From Pirellulales bacterium (GTDB lineage: Bacteria > Planctomycetota > Planctomycetia > Pirellulales > PALSA-1355), in the NCBI GenBank assembly GCA_022844125.1, contig JALHMI010000008.1, forward strand, positions 248,001-312,000: a stretch of 64,000 bases of DNA, in the 5' to 3' direction. The position numbers and the translations under genes are program-made. Within the stretch, counting starts at the first letter, position 1. Each line of letters starts with the position of its first letter. This document shows, one piece after another, positions 36,107 to 43,508 of this stretch. Below the pieces are notes generated by a model that saw only the letters and a list, made by a program, of their open reading frames with translations, had not been told where the DNA came from and ran no database searches.

Positions 36107-36847
36107 CACAAGTCCGTGTTCTTCGTGGAGTTCAGTGGTCTGGGGGGCCGCGCTGTGCACTTTACCCGCGGCGCAATGTACGCTTTCCTGCCGTCGAAAT
36201 GAGGACGGCAGGTGGTTGACATATTAACGCTTTGCAGTCCTGCAAGCTTCCCCCCAATCACCCCTGGGAGAACAACTTCGCCAGAGTCCGCAGCCCTTCG
36301 CCCAGCTCGCGACTCGCCTGAATGTTTGGCGCGCGCTGGTCCAAGCGGCGGACTGGCCTTAACGAGTCGTTTGCCCCCCCGGGGCGAAAGAACGTTGCCT
36401 GCTCTGGTGCGCGTCTAGGAAGCGGCGCGCGAGAAAAGTGGTAACTCTGTTCTAATTTGAGACTAATGGCGATCTGGCGGCTTGTCAACAAATCGCCGGA
36501 TACGCGGCAGAATCGACGCCGGCATCCCGATTTTGCGGGTGCGTTATTCCAGGGGCTCAGGTCGTTCGGACTCCCCCGGCGACGAACGGACCGCGGGGGC
36601 AATATTCGGCCCGCGAAACTACGAATGTGTGCTTGCCGAGGGCGGGGCCGCGCGCGGTTGTAGCGATTCGGCCGATCCGGTTTTTGGCGCGTGGCCCCTG
36701 GCCGCTGCTTGTGGCAGGGGTCAGCCGGTCATTATCCTGGAACTACAGGCCCCGGCCGGGACAGGCACCTCTAAGCTCGGGGCTCTGAACACTCTTATCC
36801 TTTCAGCGGTTCAACTTCAGTAGTTGCCCCAAGGGCTCAGGTTGCGC
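36107..36847. other. Divergent intergenic region with a hairpin
   Basis: About 740 bases separate the PilB-like gene (-) and the S53-like peptidase (+). A perfect 9-bp stem (36187-36195 / 36204-36212, loop GAAATGAG) lies in the probable leader of the PilB-like transcript. A second, bulged GC-rich hairpin lies around 36690-36720. Several short open frames exist, but none has a ribosome site, codon pattern or recognisable product. Promoters for both directions must lie here, but none stands out. Confidence 0.4.
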
Positions 36848-39745
36848 ATGCCGTTCGCGCGTGGTGAGGGGGACAGTCGATCGCGGGTGCCCGTGGGCCG
36901 GCAGGCGCGTTCGCGCGTGGCCGCCGGCGAACTGCTGGAAGACCGCCAACTGCTGGCCGCCGATCTGTCCTATCAAGACGTTGGCGAGCTGTGGGCCGCA
37001 GCGCTGGGCGCCGAACCAATCGCCACGCCGCTGACGAACGTTGTGGCCGAGCCCCTGGCGGGCACTGCCAACCCCAGCGGGTTCTCGCCCGCGCAGATTC
37101 GCACGGCCTACGGCTTCAATCAGATCTTCTTTCAGAACAATACGATCGTCGGCGACGGCACGGGCCAAACGATCGCGATCGTTAACGCCCATCACACGCC
37201 CAACGCCGCCAGCGACCTGGCCGCGTTCAGCGCGTACTACGGCCTCCCCAATGCCCCGAGCTTCGTGCAGGTCGATCAGAATGGTGGCACCGACTATACG
37301 ACTTCCGTCAGCGGCTGGGCGCTCGAAACGGCGCTCGATGTGCAATGGGCTCATGCGTTGGCGCCCGGCGCAAATATTCTCTTGGTCGAGGCCAACACCG
37401 CGAACTTCAGCGACTTATTCGCCGCGGTCGACTATGCCCGCAATGTGCCGGGCGTATCGGTCGTCTCGATGAGCTGGGGCGCGGGCGAGTGGAATGGCCA
37501 GTCGTTTTTTAACCAGTTTCTCACCACGCCGCCCGGTCACGCCGGTGTGACGTTCTTCGCCGCGGCCGGCAACTCGGGCGGACCCGGCGTGTTTCCGGCG
37601 TACTCACCGAACGTCGTGGCCGTCGGTGGCACGAGCGTCACGCTCAACGGTTCCAGCCAGATCATCAGCGAAACGGCCTGGAGCGGCAGCGGCGGCGGCA
37701 TCAGTCAGTACGAGGCGAAGCCGAGCTGGCAGAACGGCGTCGTCACCCAAAGCCTGACGCAGCGCGTGATGCCCGACGTCGCCTTCCTGGCTAACCCGAA
37801 CACGGGCGTGGCCGTGTACGACACGTTCAATAATTCACCCGGCACGCCGTGGTCGAAGGTCGCCGGTACGAGCTTTGCCGCGCCGAGTTGGGCATCGCTC
37901 GTGGCGGTCGCCAATCAGGGGCGAACGCTCGCCGGCCTGCCGGTGTTCGACATGAACGCTCTGATGACCCGGCTCTATACGATGCCGGCCAGCAACTTCA
38001 ACGACATCACGAGCGGCACGAGCACAGGTGCGATTCCACAATCGGCCGGCGTGGGCTACGACGCGATTACCGGCCGCGGCACGCCCAAGGCCGCACTCCT
38101 GGTCGACAGCCTCGTGGGCGTCAGCTCCGCACCCTCGGGCGTCACATTGCTCGCCGCGAGCGACACCGGCATCTCGAACTCCGATCGCATCACGCGGCTC
38201 AACAACTCCAGCGGCGGACAGACGCTGCAGTTCCAGGTTACCGGCACCGTTGCCGGCGCCACGGTACAGCTCTTCGCCGGAGCTACGCTCATCGGTTCGG
38301 CCGTGGCGGGCGGAGCCTCGACGATCGTCACCACCAACGGCAGCTTCACGCTCACCGACGGCGTGCACTCAATTACCGCCAGGCAAACCGAGCCGAGCGA
38401 GGTGCAATCGCCCGCATCACCAGCGCTACAGATCACGGTTGACGCCACCGCGCCGACGGCGGCCTTCGCGGCTGTCGCGCCCGACCCGCGCTTGGTTCCC
38501 GTCAGCTCCATCGGCCTGACCTTCAGCGAAGTCGTGAGCGGGCTGAATCTGAACGCCCTCTCGCTCTCGCGCGATGGCGGCGCGAATCTGCTGACGGGTG
38601 CACAGCCGATTTCGACGCTCGACAACATAACTTGGACGCTGGGCAACCTGACGACGATCACCAGCGTGTCCGGCGTCTATCAGCTGTTGCTCACGTCGGC
38701 CCTCTCGCCGGTCATCGACGTGGCGGGGAACATCGCCGGCAATGCGCTGGAGTCGTTCACGGTCGCTATCTCGGTGATGGGACGGATGCTGTTTTACAAC
38801 CAGTCGAAGTTCGACGGGAACAACAGCGCCATCAACGCGGCCGACGACGCCGCAATCGCGAGCGACAAATCGGCCTACATCGCCGGCAGCGGCCTGGCCA
38901 ACTTCAGCGCTGTCTCGAGCTACTCGCGCGGCATCAACGGCATCATGATCGACATCGCCGGCTCGCATCCGAACATCTCGATCAACGACTTCAGCTTCCG
39001 CGTGGGAAACAACAACTCGCTCGGCACCTGGACCGCCGCGCCGGCGCCTTCGCTTGTGACCGTGCGACCCGGCGCCGGAGTGGGCGGTTCCGATCGGATC
39101 GCCATCACCTGGGCCAACGGCGCCATCAGCAATCAGTGGCTGGAAGTGACGTTGTTGGCCAACCAGGATTCCGGTCTGGCCGAGGCCGACACGTTCTACT
39201 TCGGCAACCGGATTGGTGACACCGGGCTAAGCACTCCTCCCAGCGTGTTCTTGACGTCAGCAGGTGACGAACTGGCTGCTCGGGCCAACCCGGCGATCCA
39301 GCAAGGCGTGACCAACATCTACGACTTCAATCGCGATTCGGTTGTGAGCGGCGGCGATCAATTGACCGCCCGAAACAACGCTGGATTTCTGGTGCGATTG
39401 AATCTGGCCACGCCGCTGGCGGCGCCGTTGGTCGGCGAGGATGATGGCGATGGGGAAGGCACGGAGCAAGGCGGCGTGGACGCGATTGCGAGTGCCTTGA
39501 ACGTGCCGGCCGAACCTGAAATTGCGCCGCTGGCCGAACCAGCGGTTGCCGAGCCGCTGGTGGCGTCGCCTTTTGCCGCCGTGCTGACTCCTGCCGCGGA
39601 GCGCGTGCTTCCGCACGATCGCGGCCTCTCGCTGGCGCTGGCGCACGCCTGGCTGAAGCGCGCGAGCGACGCGGTGGAAGATTCGCCGCTCGAAGATTCG
39701 CTCTTGAACCTGCTGTCAGCAGCGCGTTCGCGGCGAGGGCGCTAG
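36848..39745 (+). CDS. Secreted S53-like (sedolisin-type) serine peptidase with LEPR-XLL-like N-terminus and shared C-terminal module
   Basis: A 965-residue exported protein. LLEDRQLLAADL (residues ~29-40) matches the LEPR-XLL-type N-terminal signal of planctomycete surface proteins. The peptidase region shows WALETALDVQWAHALAPGA, with the Glu-x3-Asp pair expected of sedolisins, VSVVSMSWG, FFAAAGNSGG and the nucleophile-type GTSFAAPSW. The oxyanion position, usually Asp in S53, appears to be Asn (AAGNSGG), as in subtilases. Beta-sandwich domains follow (VTLLAASDTGISNSD, DGVHSITARQTE). From 38780 a C-terminal module with a dockerin-like DFNRDSVVSGGDQL loop is shared with the next gene. ATG 36848 (AGG upstream) was preferred to a TTG at 36824. 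Confidence 0.85.
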   Translation: MPFARGEGDSRSRVPVGRQARSRVAAGELLEDRQLLAADLSYQDVGELWAAALGAEPIATPLTNVVAEPLAGTANPSGFSPAQIRTAYGFNQIFFQNNTIVGDGTGQTIAIVNAHHTPNAASDLAAFSAYYGLPNAPSFVQVDQNGGTDYTTSVSGWALETALDVQWAHALAPGANILLVEANTANFSDLFAAVDYARNVPGVSVVSMSWGAGEWNGQSFFNQFLTTPPGHAGVTFFAAAGNSGGPGVFPAYSPNVVAVGGTSVTLNGSSQIISETAWSGSGGGISQYEAKPSWQNGVVTQSLTQRVMPDVAFLANPNTGVAVYDTFNNSPGTPWSKVAGTSFAAPSWASLVAVANQGRTLAGLPVFDMNALMTRLYTMPASNFNDITSGTSTGAIPQSAGVGYDAITGRGTPKAALLVDSLVGVSSAPSGVTLLAASDTGISNSDRITRLNNSSGGQTLQFQVTGTVAGATVQLFAGATLIGSAVAGGASTIVTTNGSFTLTDGVHSITARQTEPSEVQSPASPALQITVDATAPTAAFAAVAPDPRLVPVSSIGLTFSEVVSGLNLNALSLSRDGGANLLTGAQPISTLDNITWTLGNLTTITSVSGVYQLLLTSALSPVIDVAGNIAGNALESFTVAISVMGRMLFYNQSKFDGNNSAINAADDAAIASDKSAYIAGSGLANFSAVSSYSRGINGIMIDIAGSHPNISINDFSFRVGNNNSLGTWTAAPAPSLVTVRPGAGVGGSDRIAITWANGAISNQWLEVTLLANQDSGLAEADTFYFGNRIGDTGLSTPPSVFLTSAGDELAARANPAIQQGVTNIYDFNRDSVVSGGDQLTARNNAGFLVRLNLATPLAAPLVGEDDGDGEGTEQGGVDAIASALNVPAEPEIAPLAEPAVAEPLVASPFAAVLTPAAERVLPHDRGLSLALAHAWLKRASDAVEDSPLEDSLLNLLSAARSRRGR
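38780..39412 (+). repeat. C-terminal module, copy 1 (in the S53-like peptidase)
   Basis: This segment encodes GRMLFYNQSKFDG, YSRGINGIMIDI, WLEVTLLANQDSGLAEADTFYFGNRIGDTG and a dockerin-like DFNRDSVVSGGDQLTARNNAG. The same order of motifs occurs in the next gene at 42705-43350. It is a duplicated protein module of about 210 residues, probably for surface attachment or complex assembly. Confidence 0.85.
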
Positions 39746-40097
39746 GCTAGCGCTCAAGGGCGTGGGAGAACTGACGAGCTCATCTGCCAACCCTGGCGCG
39801 GTGCAAAGCTGGCGCGAATGGCTCGCCGCGGACGGGAAGCCGGAGTGGATCGCTGGACCGTTCAACGGTGCCAATCGCCGGCGATAGTCGACCGACACGA
39901 CTGTCGCGATGCAGCGCCGACTCCGCTCAAAATATCCCCAGCGATTCACAGATTTCGATTGACTCCCTTGGACACATTCCAATAGACTGACGATTGAACC
40001 CGTCGGGGGGGCGTTCCCACCTCACCTCGCTGCGCCCTCCGCCTGGCTGGTTCACGGAACAACAGAATTCATACATATCTATTCGGAGGCGAGCATC
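39746..40097. other. Gap between the two surface-protein genes
   Basis: This 352-base gap contains the decayed module tail described separately (39765-39887). The remaining ~210 bases before the next start hold no gene, but end in a good ribosome-binding site (GGAGG) about 9 bases before the ATG at 40098. Confidence 0.5.
39765..39887 (+). pseudogene. Decayed remnant of the surface-protein C-terminal tail
   Basis: One frame reads GELTSSSANPGAVQSWREWLA then ADGKPEW to a TAG at 39885-39887. The tail of the ELWxxDGT protein is GELLAYAMQNWREWLDADDE. The DNA run TGGCGCGAATGGCTCG followed by CGCGGACG is shared almost exactly (39810-39833 versus 43456-43479). No start codon or upstream body exists here, so it looks like a leftover of duplication or recombination between these neighbouring genes. 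Confidence 0.55.
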
Positions 40098-43000
40098 ATG
40101 CGATGCTACCGTAGCGCGCTGCGCGCACGAGGTGAGGGATTCGAGGTCCTGGAATCGCGGCAACTACTTTCCGTCACGCCGCAACTCCTGGCAGACATCA
40201 ACCCCGAGCAGTCGTCCTATCCGCGGGATTTCATTGAGTTCGACGGCAAGCTGTTTTACACGGCTGAGCATGCCGAGTACGGTCGCGAGCTGTGGTCCAG
40301 CGACGGCACGCCCGAGGGAACCGGGCTGGTGAAAGACATTCGTCCGGGCGAAGACGATTCAAAAATCTCAGGTCTGACGGTTTCCGGCGGCTGGCTGTAT
40401 TTCGTCGCCGACGACGGTACGCATGGCCGCGAGCTGTGGCGGACCGATGGAACGGCGGAGGGCACGGAGCTCTTTCACGAGTTCAGCCCTGGCGGAAACG
40501 GTCTGGGCACCGATCCGGACATGGCCGACGTTGCGGGGACACTCTTCCTCGAAACAAGCAATCCTGCCAACTTGTGGAAGTCGGACGGCACCGAGGCAGG
40601 CACCGTCTTGCTGAAGTCCATTTCAAACTCCGCGGAGAACTTTACCGCGGTCGGAGATCTACTGTTCTTCACGGGAGCACGTGATGAACTCTGGAAGAGC
40701 GATGGAACACCGGAAGGTACAACGCTCGTCAAGGACTTTAACACGGGGATCGGTCACGGGGGCTGGGTCGAAGAGCTCACGGCCTTCGATGGCAATTTGT
40801 TTTTCGTCGTCGATGGTTTCGTGTGGAAGAGCAATGGCACCGCCGCGGGAACTGTCAAAGTAGCTTCTGCGGGCGCCTACCAGCTCTCGTATGCCGAGTC
40901 GCTCGAAGTAGCCGGAGACAAACTGTTCTTCGCCGCGCGCCGAGACAACCAAGATGACATCTGGGTAATCAATGGCGAGAGCTCACCGGCGGTTCCTGTT
41001 CAAATCCCAACGAACCTTTCCATCTACGAGCGAGATCAACTGACCGCCGTGGGCAACTCGGTGTACTACCGCGATGGATTGGGTGGGTCGCATGGTCTCT
41101 GGCGCACAGATGGTACAACCGAAGGCACGAATTTCGTTGTCGCACTCGAAGAGGATGGCCAGCCTCTCTACATTGACCAGATGACGGCATTTGGTGACGA
41201 GCTGTTCTTCGCGACCTCGATGAACAACAGCATCGATGGTCCTGACCTGTGGCGAGCCAACGGCACGCCGGAGGGTACTTCGCGCTGGCGAACGTTCATC
41301 GTAGCGCCCATGTTCTACTTCTCAATTCGGGGTTTGGGCATTGAGCTCGGCGTGGCCGGCGGCAACCTGTACTTCACCGCCAACGGCGGCGGCACCGGAC
41401 TCGAACTGTGGCGGACCGACGGCACGGACGAGGGGACGCTGCAATTGCACGACCTGCCGAACGTCGCGACCGATTCGTCTACGCCGCGAGACTTCGTGTC
41501 CACGACCACGCACGTCTACTTCACGGCCGACAACGGTTTTGGCCGGCAACTGTTCTCTGCGGCCGGTCCCAACGGCCCCGTCACGCAGCTCACGCCGTCG
41601 ATGAGCGGCCTCGTCGGCTCGCAGGTCGAGCAGCTCACGCCAGTGGGCAGCCTGCTGTACTTCGTGGCCGTCGACGAGAACGGCCGCTACCTAGGCGTCA
41701 GCGATGGCACACTCGCGGGCACGCAGCGCTTGAGCTGGCCCTTCGCCATGGGCGAGGTCGAAGTTTACGGTCTCAATGAGTTCGGCGGGGGCGTGATCTT
41801 CCTTATCGCTGACGAAACGCTGGGCGTGATGATCGCTCGGGCCGACTCCGAGGGCATTGAAATCGTTCACACGTTGGGAACCACGTTCACGGTCTCAGAC
41901 GTTGATGCGCCGGTCATCTGGCAAGGCCACTACTACTTCATCGCCGGCGAAGGCACCAAGGAAATATGGCACACCGATGGTACGTCGGCCGGCACGCAGC
42001 GCTTGAGCGACACCGCGCCCAACCTGGGACCGTATGGGCAGGGACTCACCGCTACGACCAACCTGCTGTACTTCATCTCAGCAGAGTCTGACGAAAGTCC
42101 CTCGCGCCTGTGGCGCACCGATGGCACGGCCGAAGGCTCGTTTGCGTATTCCGACTTACAAGTACCGCTGCAGTTGAAGGCACTGGGGAATTACCTGTTT
42201 TTTAGCTTCCGCGGCCATTTCAACCCTTACGACAACGAGCTTTGGTCAACGGACGGAACGATCGAAGGCACAATCCTCGTCGGAGAGTACAACGAACCCC
42301 ATGCGATGTCGTGGCTAAGTGGCATGCAGCTTATTGCTGCAGAGCTCAATGGCTTACTGTACTTTTTCGGACCAGCCGCAACGGTTGGGTCTGAATTCGC
42401 CCTCTGGCGCAGTGACGGTACGGTAGGCGGAACAGAGCATGTCGTCGACTTCCCCGACATTGGGAGTAGTCGAAATTGGCTGATCAGCAGCGAAGGCGGC
42501 AGGCTGCTTTTGTATGTGAACAGCTACATCTACGAGAGCGACGGCACGGCAACTGGAACGCGCAAACTACCCGTTAGCCCTTACTTGTCGGTCGAGTTTG
42601 GTCGTCAAGTTGCGTGGCTAAACGACACGCTGTATTACGGGCTATCGACAGCCGAATACGGCTGGGAGCCATTCACCTATACGCGTGGACCCTCGAGCGT
42701 CGCTGGTCGCCACTTGTTCTATAACGAATCGGTTTTTGACGGGAACGGTTCGACCGTCGATTGGCAAGCCGACGGGCGGGCAATTGACACGAACAAGCAG
42801 GCCTACCTGCCAGGCAGTGGCCCAGCCACATTCGCCAACATCTCGAGCTACTCGCGAGGGATCAACGGCATCCTGATTGACATTCTGGACCTGCCCGACA
42901 ATGTTCTCGGTCCTTTGATCACCTTGGACGATTTCGCATTCCGCGTCGGCAACACGAACGACCCGAACTCGTGGGCCGACGGGCCTGCTCCCAACCAAAT

Positions 43001-43508
43001 AGGCTTCGTCGAGTACACGGATCTCGGCTGGGGAATCTTCCTGAGTTGGGAATCTGGCGCGATCAAAAACACCTGGCTGGAAGTCACCGTGCTGGCGAAC
43101 GAACGGACCGGCCTGGCCGAGCCCGACGTGTTCTACTTCGGCAGCCGAATCGGCGACACCGGCTCGGGCACTCCGGCCGCGGCGGTAACGAGCGCGGCCG
43201 ACGAGCTGGCGGCCCGCTTTGCACTTGGTGTGAATCAATCGATTGTGAGCCTGGTGGACTTCGATCGCAACGGCGTCGTCAACGCCGGCGACGCTCTGAT
43301 CGCGCGCAACAACGCCGGTATCCTCCTGAAGCTGGATCTCCCCGGCGAAAACTCGCCAGCCGCGGTGCCACTGGTGCTCGCAGAACCGTTGCGGACATCC
43401 GCCGCGGCCAAGTCGCCCTCCCGCGGCGAACTCCTGGCCTACGCCATGCAAAACTGGCGCGAATGGCTCGACGCGGACGACGAGGATGAGTTCTTTGGCG
43501 GACGCTAA
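40098..43508 (+). CDS. Surface ELWxxDGT repeat protein with LEPR-XLL-like N-terminus
   Basis: A 1136-residue exported protein. It begins with FEVLESRQLLSVTP (residues ~15-28), an LEPR-XLL-type N-terminal signal. About fourteen ELWxxDGTxxGT-type repeats follow (for example ELWRTDGTAEGT, EIWHTDGTSAGT), spaced ~45-60 residues apart and giving a long beta-propeller or solenoid. From 42705 it carries the same C-terminal module as the upstream peptidase, including DFDRNGVVNAGDALIARNN, and ends with a short acidic tail. A strong ribosome site (GGAGG) supports the start. The protein probably acts as an adhesin or surface scaffold. The catalytic function, if any, is not visible. Confidence 0.88.
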   Translation: MRCYRSALRARGEGFEVLESRQLLSVTPQLLADINPEQSSYPRDFIEFDGKLFYTAEHAEYGRELWSSDGTPEGTGLVKDIRPGEDDSKISGLTVSGGWLYFVADDGTHGRELWRTDGTAEGTELFHEFSPGGNGLGTDPDMADVAGTLFLETSNPANLWKSDGTEAGTVLLKSISNSAENFTAVGDLLFFTGARDELWKSDGTPEGTTLVKDFNTGIGHGGWVEELTAFDGNLFFVVDGFVWKSNGTAAGTVKVASAGAYQLSYAESLEVAGDKLFFAARRDNQDDIWVINGESSPAVPVQIPTNLSIYERDQLTAVGNSVYYRDGLGGSHGLWRTDGTTEGTNFVVALEEDGQPLYIDQMTAFGDELFFATSMNNSIDGPDLWRANGTPEGTSRWRTFIVAPMFYFSIRGLGIELGVAGGNLYFTANGGGTGLELWRTDGTDEGTLQLHDLPNVATDSSTPRDFVSTTTHVYFTADNGFGRQLFSAAGPNGPVTQLTPSMSGLVGSQVEQLTPVGSLLYFVAVDENGRYLGVSDGTLAGTQRLSWPFAMGEVEVYGLNEFGGGVIFLIADETLGVMIARADSEGIEIVHTLGTTFTVSDVDAPVIWQGHYYFIAGEGTKEIWHTDGTSAGTQRLSDTAPNLGPYGQGLTATTNLLYFISAESDESPSRLWRTDGTAEGSFAYSDLQVPLQLKALGNYLFFSFRGHFNPYDNELWSTDGTIEGTILVGEYNEPHAMSWLSGMQLIAAELNGLLYFFGPAATVGSEFALWRSDGTVGGTEHVVDFPDIGSSRNWLISSEGGRLLLYVNSYIYESDGTATGTRKLPVSPYLSVEFGRQVAWLNDTLYYGLSTAEYGWEPFTYTRGPSSVAGRHLFYNESVFDGNGSTVDWQADGRAIDTNKQAYLPGSGPATFANISSYSRGINGILIDILDLPDNVLGPLITLDDFAFRVGNTNDPNSWADGPAPNQIGFVEYTDLGWGIFLSWESGAIKNTWLEVTVLANERTGLAEPDVFYFGSRIGDTGSGTPAAAVTSAADELAARFALGVNQSIVSLVDFDRNGVVNAGDALIARNNAGILLKLDLPGENSPAAVPLVLAEPLRTSAAAKSPSRGELLAYAMQNWREWLDADDEDEFFGGR
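42705..43350 (+). repeat. C-terminal module, copy 2 (in the ELWxxDGT protein)
   Basis: It encodes GRHLFYNESVFDG, YSRGINGILIDI, WLEVTVLANERTGLAEPDVF, YFGSRIGDTG and DFDRNGVVNAGDALIARNN, in the same order as copy 1 at 38780-39412. The Asp-rich DxNxDG-like loop resembles half a dockerin repeat. Confidence 0.85.

Follow-up and report, generated by a model that had tools for sequence, protein, structure and literature searches.

A dockerin-like module shared by many secreted proteins of a Pirellulales bacterium, its probable spread by gene conversion, and a relic gene end between two of its carriers

Two neighbouring genes of a Pirellulales bacterium encode secreted proteins with unrelated bodies that share one C-terminal module, and this module is a multi-copy element of secreted enzymes and repeat proteins, undescribed in the libraries searched. 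In the preferred reading, whose probability is put at about 0.6, the two modules are a copy pair of an exoprotein module that is homogenised by gene conversion and serves as a putative docking tag, and a short relic between the two genes comes from a lost copy of the ELWxxDGT type. The module is ordinary as one more shared exoprotein module; it is unusual in its in-genome homogenisation. The window is the whole stretch of 64,000 nucleotides that was analysed, and all the features located in it below lie on the + strand.

A shared module in two unrelated proteins

The first gene (36824..39745, longest frame) encodes a protein of 973 aa with a sedolisin-like (S53) body, Big_13-like domains and the module. 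Its label as S53-like in an earlier note on this DNA was correct: phmmer matched residues 51-362 of a 370-residue query to solved sedolisin chains with E values of 1e-8 to 2e-8, despite which no Pfam S53 or S8 model was found on the protein at E 1. The second gene (40098..43508) encodes a protein of 1136 aa whose body consists of 13 ELWxxDGT repeats, above the cut-off of TIGR04534 with 361.9 bits, so that the two proteins are indeed otherwise unrelated, as had been claimed. The C-terminal block that they were said to share is also real, since BLASTP aligned residues 650-870 of the S53 protein with residues 867-1093 of the ELWxxDGT protein over 230 columns, 117 of them identical (51%, E 4e-59).

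The module, located at 38780..39448 in the first gene and at 42705..43391 in the second, comprises about 220 residues, begins with GRxLFYN and ends just past a dockerin-like loop. A predicted beta domain (GRxLFYN..SSYSRGINGIMID..VFYFG) is followed by a two-fold dockerin-like element, in which [ST]AxDxLxARxN occurs twice and one clear loop of the EF-hand type is found. This second loop reads DFNRDSVVSGGD in the S53 protein (39323..39358) and DFDRNGVVNAGD in the ELWxxDGT protein (43257..43292); a loop of the dockerin-like kind proposed for the end of the block occurs in both proteins, with S and not G at loop position 6 in the S53 copy. The strict EF-hand-like form of the second loop was present in 47 of 70 modules and a relaxed form in 60 of 70, and alignments showed the first loop to be expanded, irregular and degenerate. 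A variable linker follows the module, and the C-terminus often has an acidic-leucine motif.

Searches of libraries and structures returned no established family for this module. No Pfam or NCBIfam model covered it when both window proteins were searched (Dockerin_1 was also run against 18 modules), a sequence search of the PDB gave no convincing relative, and two Foldseek searches with module models yielded generic Ig-like matches only, none with E <0.001. The AlphaFold models used had a mean pLDDT of 56-58 overall, with most blocks of the beta core at 70-89. A literature search found no description of the module, the planctosome model being the nearest idea; LEPR-XLL was mentioned in 2 papers.

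Copy number and carriers

The module was sought in this and related genomes, as the earlier note had proposed, and turned up in about 20 copies in the bacterium's own genome and as 14-33 matches per family member. The own genome gave 23 module matches, which include 19 near-complete modules, of which one is split, as well as a decayed fragment and two copies at contig ends; three other genomes of the family gave 14, 33 and 23 matches. Beyond the family the module becomes scarce: of 35 other members of the order, 10 had one or two matches and the rest none, and in a sample of 392 genomes of the phylum, for which fewer candidates were scored per genome, it was found in 6 besides the own genome.

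The bodies of the carriers are diverse and include arylsulfotransferase, sorbosone dehydrogenase, beta-lactamase/PKD, PhoPQ-related, SdrD_B, trypsin-like, PMP-repeat and P-domain proteins. In 59 carriers the final module sits at most 140 residues from the end of the protein. However, the module is not simply a C-terminal sorting signal, because it is internal or N-terminal in about 7 carriers and in tandem in 6. One orthologous pair has a module split by an insert of 330 residues that is 56% identical between the two genomes; in these genes (own L022 7832-9796 and G002 L103 10142-12184, from both genera), the insert of roughly that length is a repeat domain placed after the first ~36 residues of the module.

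Copying of module DNA as a cassette

Several pairs of genes are alike in their modules and different elsewhere. In the own genome, two genes at contig ends (the end of C2, L023 3406-3524, and the start of C15, L024 1-119) share 119 identical bp that begin at the first residues of the module and run to both contig ends, and their bodies are paralogous with 42% protein identity. The assembly likely stopped there at a repeat too long to assemble, made of near-identical module copies. The family member G002 likewise has 127 identical bp at two contig ends. In the same genome, the modules of L095 and L111 are 97% identical at the nucleotide level and 93% at four-fold sites, with the 240 nt upstream at the background level of 57%, and L094/L095 and L098/L099 show the same pattern, with both flanks, tails included, at background. 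A similar picture was obtained in the own genome for L013 and L014, with beta-lactamase and SdrD_B bodies, where modules of 83% nucleotide identity stand between flanks at background, again including the tails. The exchanged unit in these pairs stops near the module end and leaves the tails uncopied.

The phylogeny of the module points in the same direction. In a tree of 72 modules the genome label changed 7 times, compared with 36 when the labels were shuffled, and many carrier bodies are orthologous between genomes, yet their modules cluster by genome. An AU test rejected sister modules for the orthologous bodies L019/L104 (p 1e-48); for other orthologous pairs the p values were 0.065 (S53), 0.053 (L009/L091), 0.091 (ASST) and 0.133 (the split module). 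Since most of these tests miss 0.05, the incongruence between tree and bodies is decisive for one pair only.

It could be argued that each module was inherited vertically with its gene, the likeness between copies reflecting shared composition and strong purifying selection with no exchange. The PMP-repeat genes L015_4001 and L107_3309 behave in this way, as they keep sister modules with a support of 100/98, and the several AU tests that fail to reject sister modules for orthologous bodies are also compatible with it. As a general account, however, vertical descent is very unlikely, given that otherwise different genes match exactly over 119 and 127 bp from the module edge onwards, that modules with 97% nucleotide and 93% four-fold identity lie beside background flanks, and that sister modules are rejected for L019/L104; sharp mosaic edges contradict it for several gene pairs.

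Homogenisation of the module by gene conversion as a DNA cassette is well supported for some genes and is what we infer for the rest of the family, on the strength of mosaic similarity, no recombination event having been seen in very close strains. Module DNA would be copied from gene to gene in tracts bounded roughly by the module edges, and such conversion without exchange of flanks would both spread the copies and keep them alike. Site-specific recombination at the module start was rejected as a candidate, because synonymous sites show no elevated conservation at that point. A modest rise in four-fold-site identity, clearest in G002 and also seen in G001, was observed at the SSYSRGINGIM stretch (alignment columns 40-60), and either codon bias or a conversion hot spot might account for it.

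The earlier note had proposed module shuffling by recombination at this very locus. Shuffling in the genomes of the family is supported by the mosaic pairs and the tree; between the two window genes it is unsupported. The two modules are 53% identical to each other in this comparison, below their best partners elsewhere in the genome at 64% and 58%, respectively, and they are unpaired in the module tree, although the AU test does not reject their pairing (p 0.23). In 3 of 4 adjacent carrier pairs the modules are no closer mutually than to other copies, and the L017 pair is marginally closer (56 vs 55).

The intergenic relic

Between the two genes lies a relic of 41 codons and a stop (39762..39888), in a frame that differs from that of the S53 ORF, which translates as VGELTSSSANPGAVQSWREWLAADGKPEWIAGPFNGANRRR followed by the stop. 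Its likeness to the tail of the ELWxxDGT protein (GELLAYAMQNWREWLDADDEDEFFGGR, 43392..43508) was claimed before and is real at the DNA level. The core of the relic (39802..39834) is identical to 43447-43479 at 31 of 33 nt, with blastn E values of 6e-9 in the window and 2.4e-7 in the 6.4 Mb genome, and the ELWxxDGT tail is the sole other copy of the core found, no comparable third copy having been returned by the genome-wide search. At the protein level, the alignment of the relic with this tail scored 66, which none of 5000 shuffles reached. Outside WREWL the DNA matches at 15/18 (p 2e-5) and 26/42 positions, above chance, and the protein match is weaker there (p 0.035). The two observations that would have refuted the earlier proposal were not made: the module is found elsewhere and the relic beats chance outside WREWL. 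Both nucleotide differences in the 33-nt core change the amino acid, so selection at the protein level is a poor explanation of the likeness, which would reflect a fairly recent copy. A promoter-like site, a consensus match only, lies between the relic and the ELWxxDGT gene (39959..39988).

The relic copies the tail and not the module, and the exchange tracts described above end near the module end. Its origin from a lost or partly duplicated neighbour of the ELWxxDGT type is preferred over other origins, at roughly even odds: the relic would be the 3' end of a former tandem or partial copy of such a gene, left behind by deletion. The preference is based on the relic being a tail, on the S53 orthologue of G002 having its own tail of the present type, and on a precedent for decay in the own genome. 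The precedent is found at C10:83315 (L022 1133-1663), where a decayed module fragment occupies a neighbourhood matching that in which G002 has a full module gene (L103 631-3315), and it follows that gene loss with leftovers does occur in this genome.

In an alternative origin, the relic is the old tail of the S53 gene itself, displaced when this gene acquired a new module end and stop by recombination, so that its former tail was stranded downstream. The open stretch of the relic does start some 17 nt past the S53 stop, and the relic shares an arginine-ending tail with the S53 protein and its orthologue. Such a displacement is nevertheless unlikely, since the G002 orthologue, 65% identical in its body, has a tail of the present S53 type (IDDALLDLLAGGSRHAARRRR vs LEDSLLNLLSAARSRRGR) without WREWL, and exchange tracts elsewhere stop short of the tail. 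This orthologue is followed by a gene that reads as a helicase, with neither a relic nor an ELWxxDGT neighbour. A small functional ORF or regulatory peptide, suggested by an open stretch of 41 codons framed by a GTG start and a stop, is extremely improbable given that no such gene follows the S53 orthologue in G002, that what the relic resembles is the terminal part of a long protein and that no comparable third copy was found in the genome.

A profile built on the tails of G001, G003 and two genes of the own genome failed to lift the relic or the ELWxxDGT tail above background, so the relic was rejected as a member of a general tail family, and the 500 bp downstream of the carriers contained no second displaced tail of this kind, most matches being overlaps with the next gene. 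At CDI and Rhs loci, orphan tips are displaced gene ends left downstream of a modular surface protein. The relic resembles them in lying 3' of such a protein; it differs in that here a conserved module moves between variable bodies and in having no toxin or immunity context, its displacement being a proposal only.

A putative docking function

The earlier suggestion that the module is a common wall-docking or assembly domain fares well in so far as the module is general and accompanied by LEPR-XLL-like N-termini; docking itself is possible. Because the module is uniform across unrelated bodies that bear N-termini of a secretion type, a common partner in the envelope may be argued for. All copies would bind this one partner at the cell envelope or matrix, which is the likely cause of their uniformity, and the module would thereby serve as a tag for docking or retention. 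The receptor sought in this connection was not found, no cohesin in the genome exceeding the Pfam cut-off (PF00963, best E 0.045), and for that reason an assembly of the cellulosome or planctosome kind is unsupported as such.

One specific mechanism would be assembly of the carriers on cohesin scaffolds, with the module as a genuine type I dockerin, as in the planctosome proposed for freshwater Planctomycetes. This is a cohesin/dockerin complex proposed for Nemodlikiaceae; the model relies on domains recognised as cohesins and dockerins and on an anchor with a lamin tail (PMC6461901). The secreted peptidases and P-domain proteins that carry dockerin-like modules here recall that model (PMC6461901), and the module shares with type I dockerins (PF00404) a two-fold element in which one loop is clearly of the D-x-[DN]-x-[DN]-G type, strict in the 47 modules counted above, and is followed by a DxLxAR helix-like stretch. 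The identification is still distinctly unlikely. Only 3 of 18 modules matched Dockerin_1 (PF00404), with a best E of 0.044 and below the gathering cut-off, and PF00404 gave no match at E 1 in the full window proteins; moreover, the first loop is degenerate, a fused beta domain without a dockerin counterpart makes up more than half of the module, and the best cohesin score stays under the cut-off. Relative to the planctosome, the module is of another type.

Sorting domains such as the T9SS CTD and PEP-CTERM provide a second comparison, in which secreted proteins with little else in common carry one conserved end module, frequently together with a short motif at the terminus. The present module shares these traits but can also be internal, N-terminal or in tandem, and carries an EF-hand-like loop; none of the sorting-domain models of Pfam and NCBIfam matched the two window proteins.

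The routing and retention of large secreted proteins in planctomycetes are poorly understood. A module that is borne by ~20-30 unrelated exoproteins per genome, copied as a cassette and absent from the family databases searched offers a defined handle on both processes; it could be used in reporter fusions or as receptor bait, and its copies in close strains could gauge the rate of cassette movement. A more far-reaching view, tentative and doubtful as a whole, is that one undescribed module, made of the beta domain, the dockerin-like element and the acidic-leucine tag, is borne by much of the family exoproteome and stays uniform through frequent gene conversion within the genome since all copies must fit one envelope receptor, which would amount to a new system of display or retention with its own assembly rule.

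N- and C-terminal companions of the module

Both window proteins were described as having N-termini of the LEPR-XLL type. The motifs are present, as LEDRQLL in the S53 protein (36935..36955) and LESRQLL in the ELWxxDGT protein (40149..40169), but with 18.6 and 15.5 bits, respectively, both fall under the PF07595 cut-off of 25.5. The co-occurrence that had been suggested is supported among the carriers: a regular expression for the LEPR-XLL-like motif matched 52 of the 62 whose N-terminus could be read, whereas shuffled sequences gave 0.4 on average, a contrast somewhat flattered by the expression having been composed after viewing the sequences. Planc_extracel (PF07595) resembles the LEPR-like element seen near the N-terminus of most carriers and differs in being spread beyond them: it gave 38 matches with E values of 10 or less in the own genome, of which 16 are module carriers.

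At the other end, 32 of 58 carriers had a motif of the form [DE]xLLDxLL among their final 24 residues, against a mean of 1.8 and a maximum of 8 in shuffled tails, a comparison to which the same caution applies, as this expression was likewise composed after viewing the sequences. The S53 protein has such a motif at its C-terminus (LEDSLLNLL, 39689..39715); the ELWxxDGT protein and the relic have none. A longer, helical-looking tail, AVAKAI...DxxLLDSLLxxLGL, is common to some carriers of three genomes (L009 and L019, and carriers in G001 and G003).
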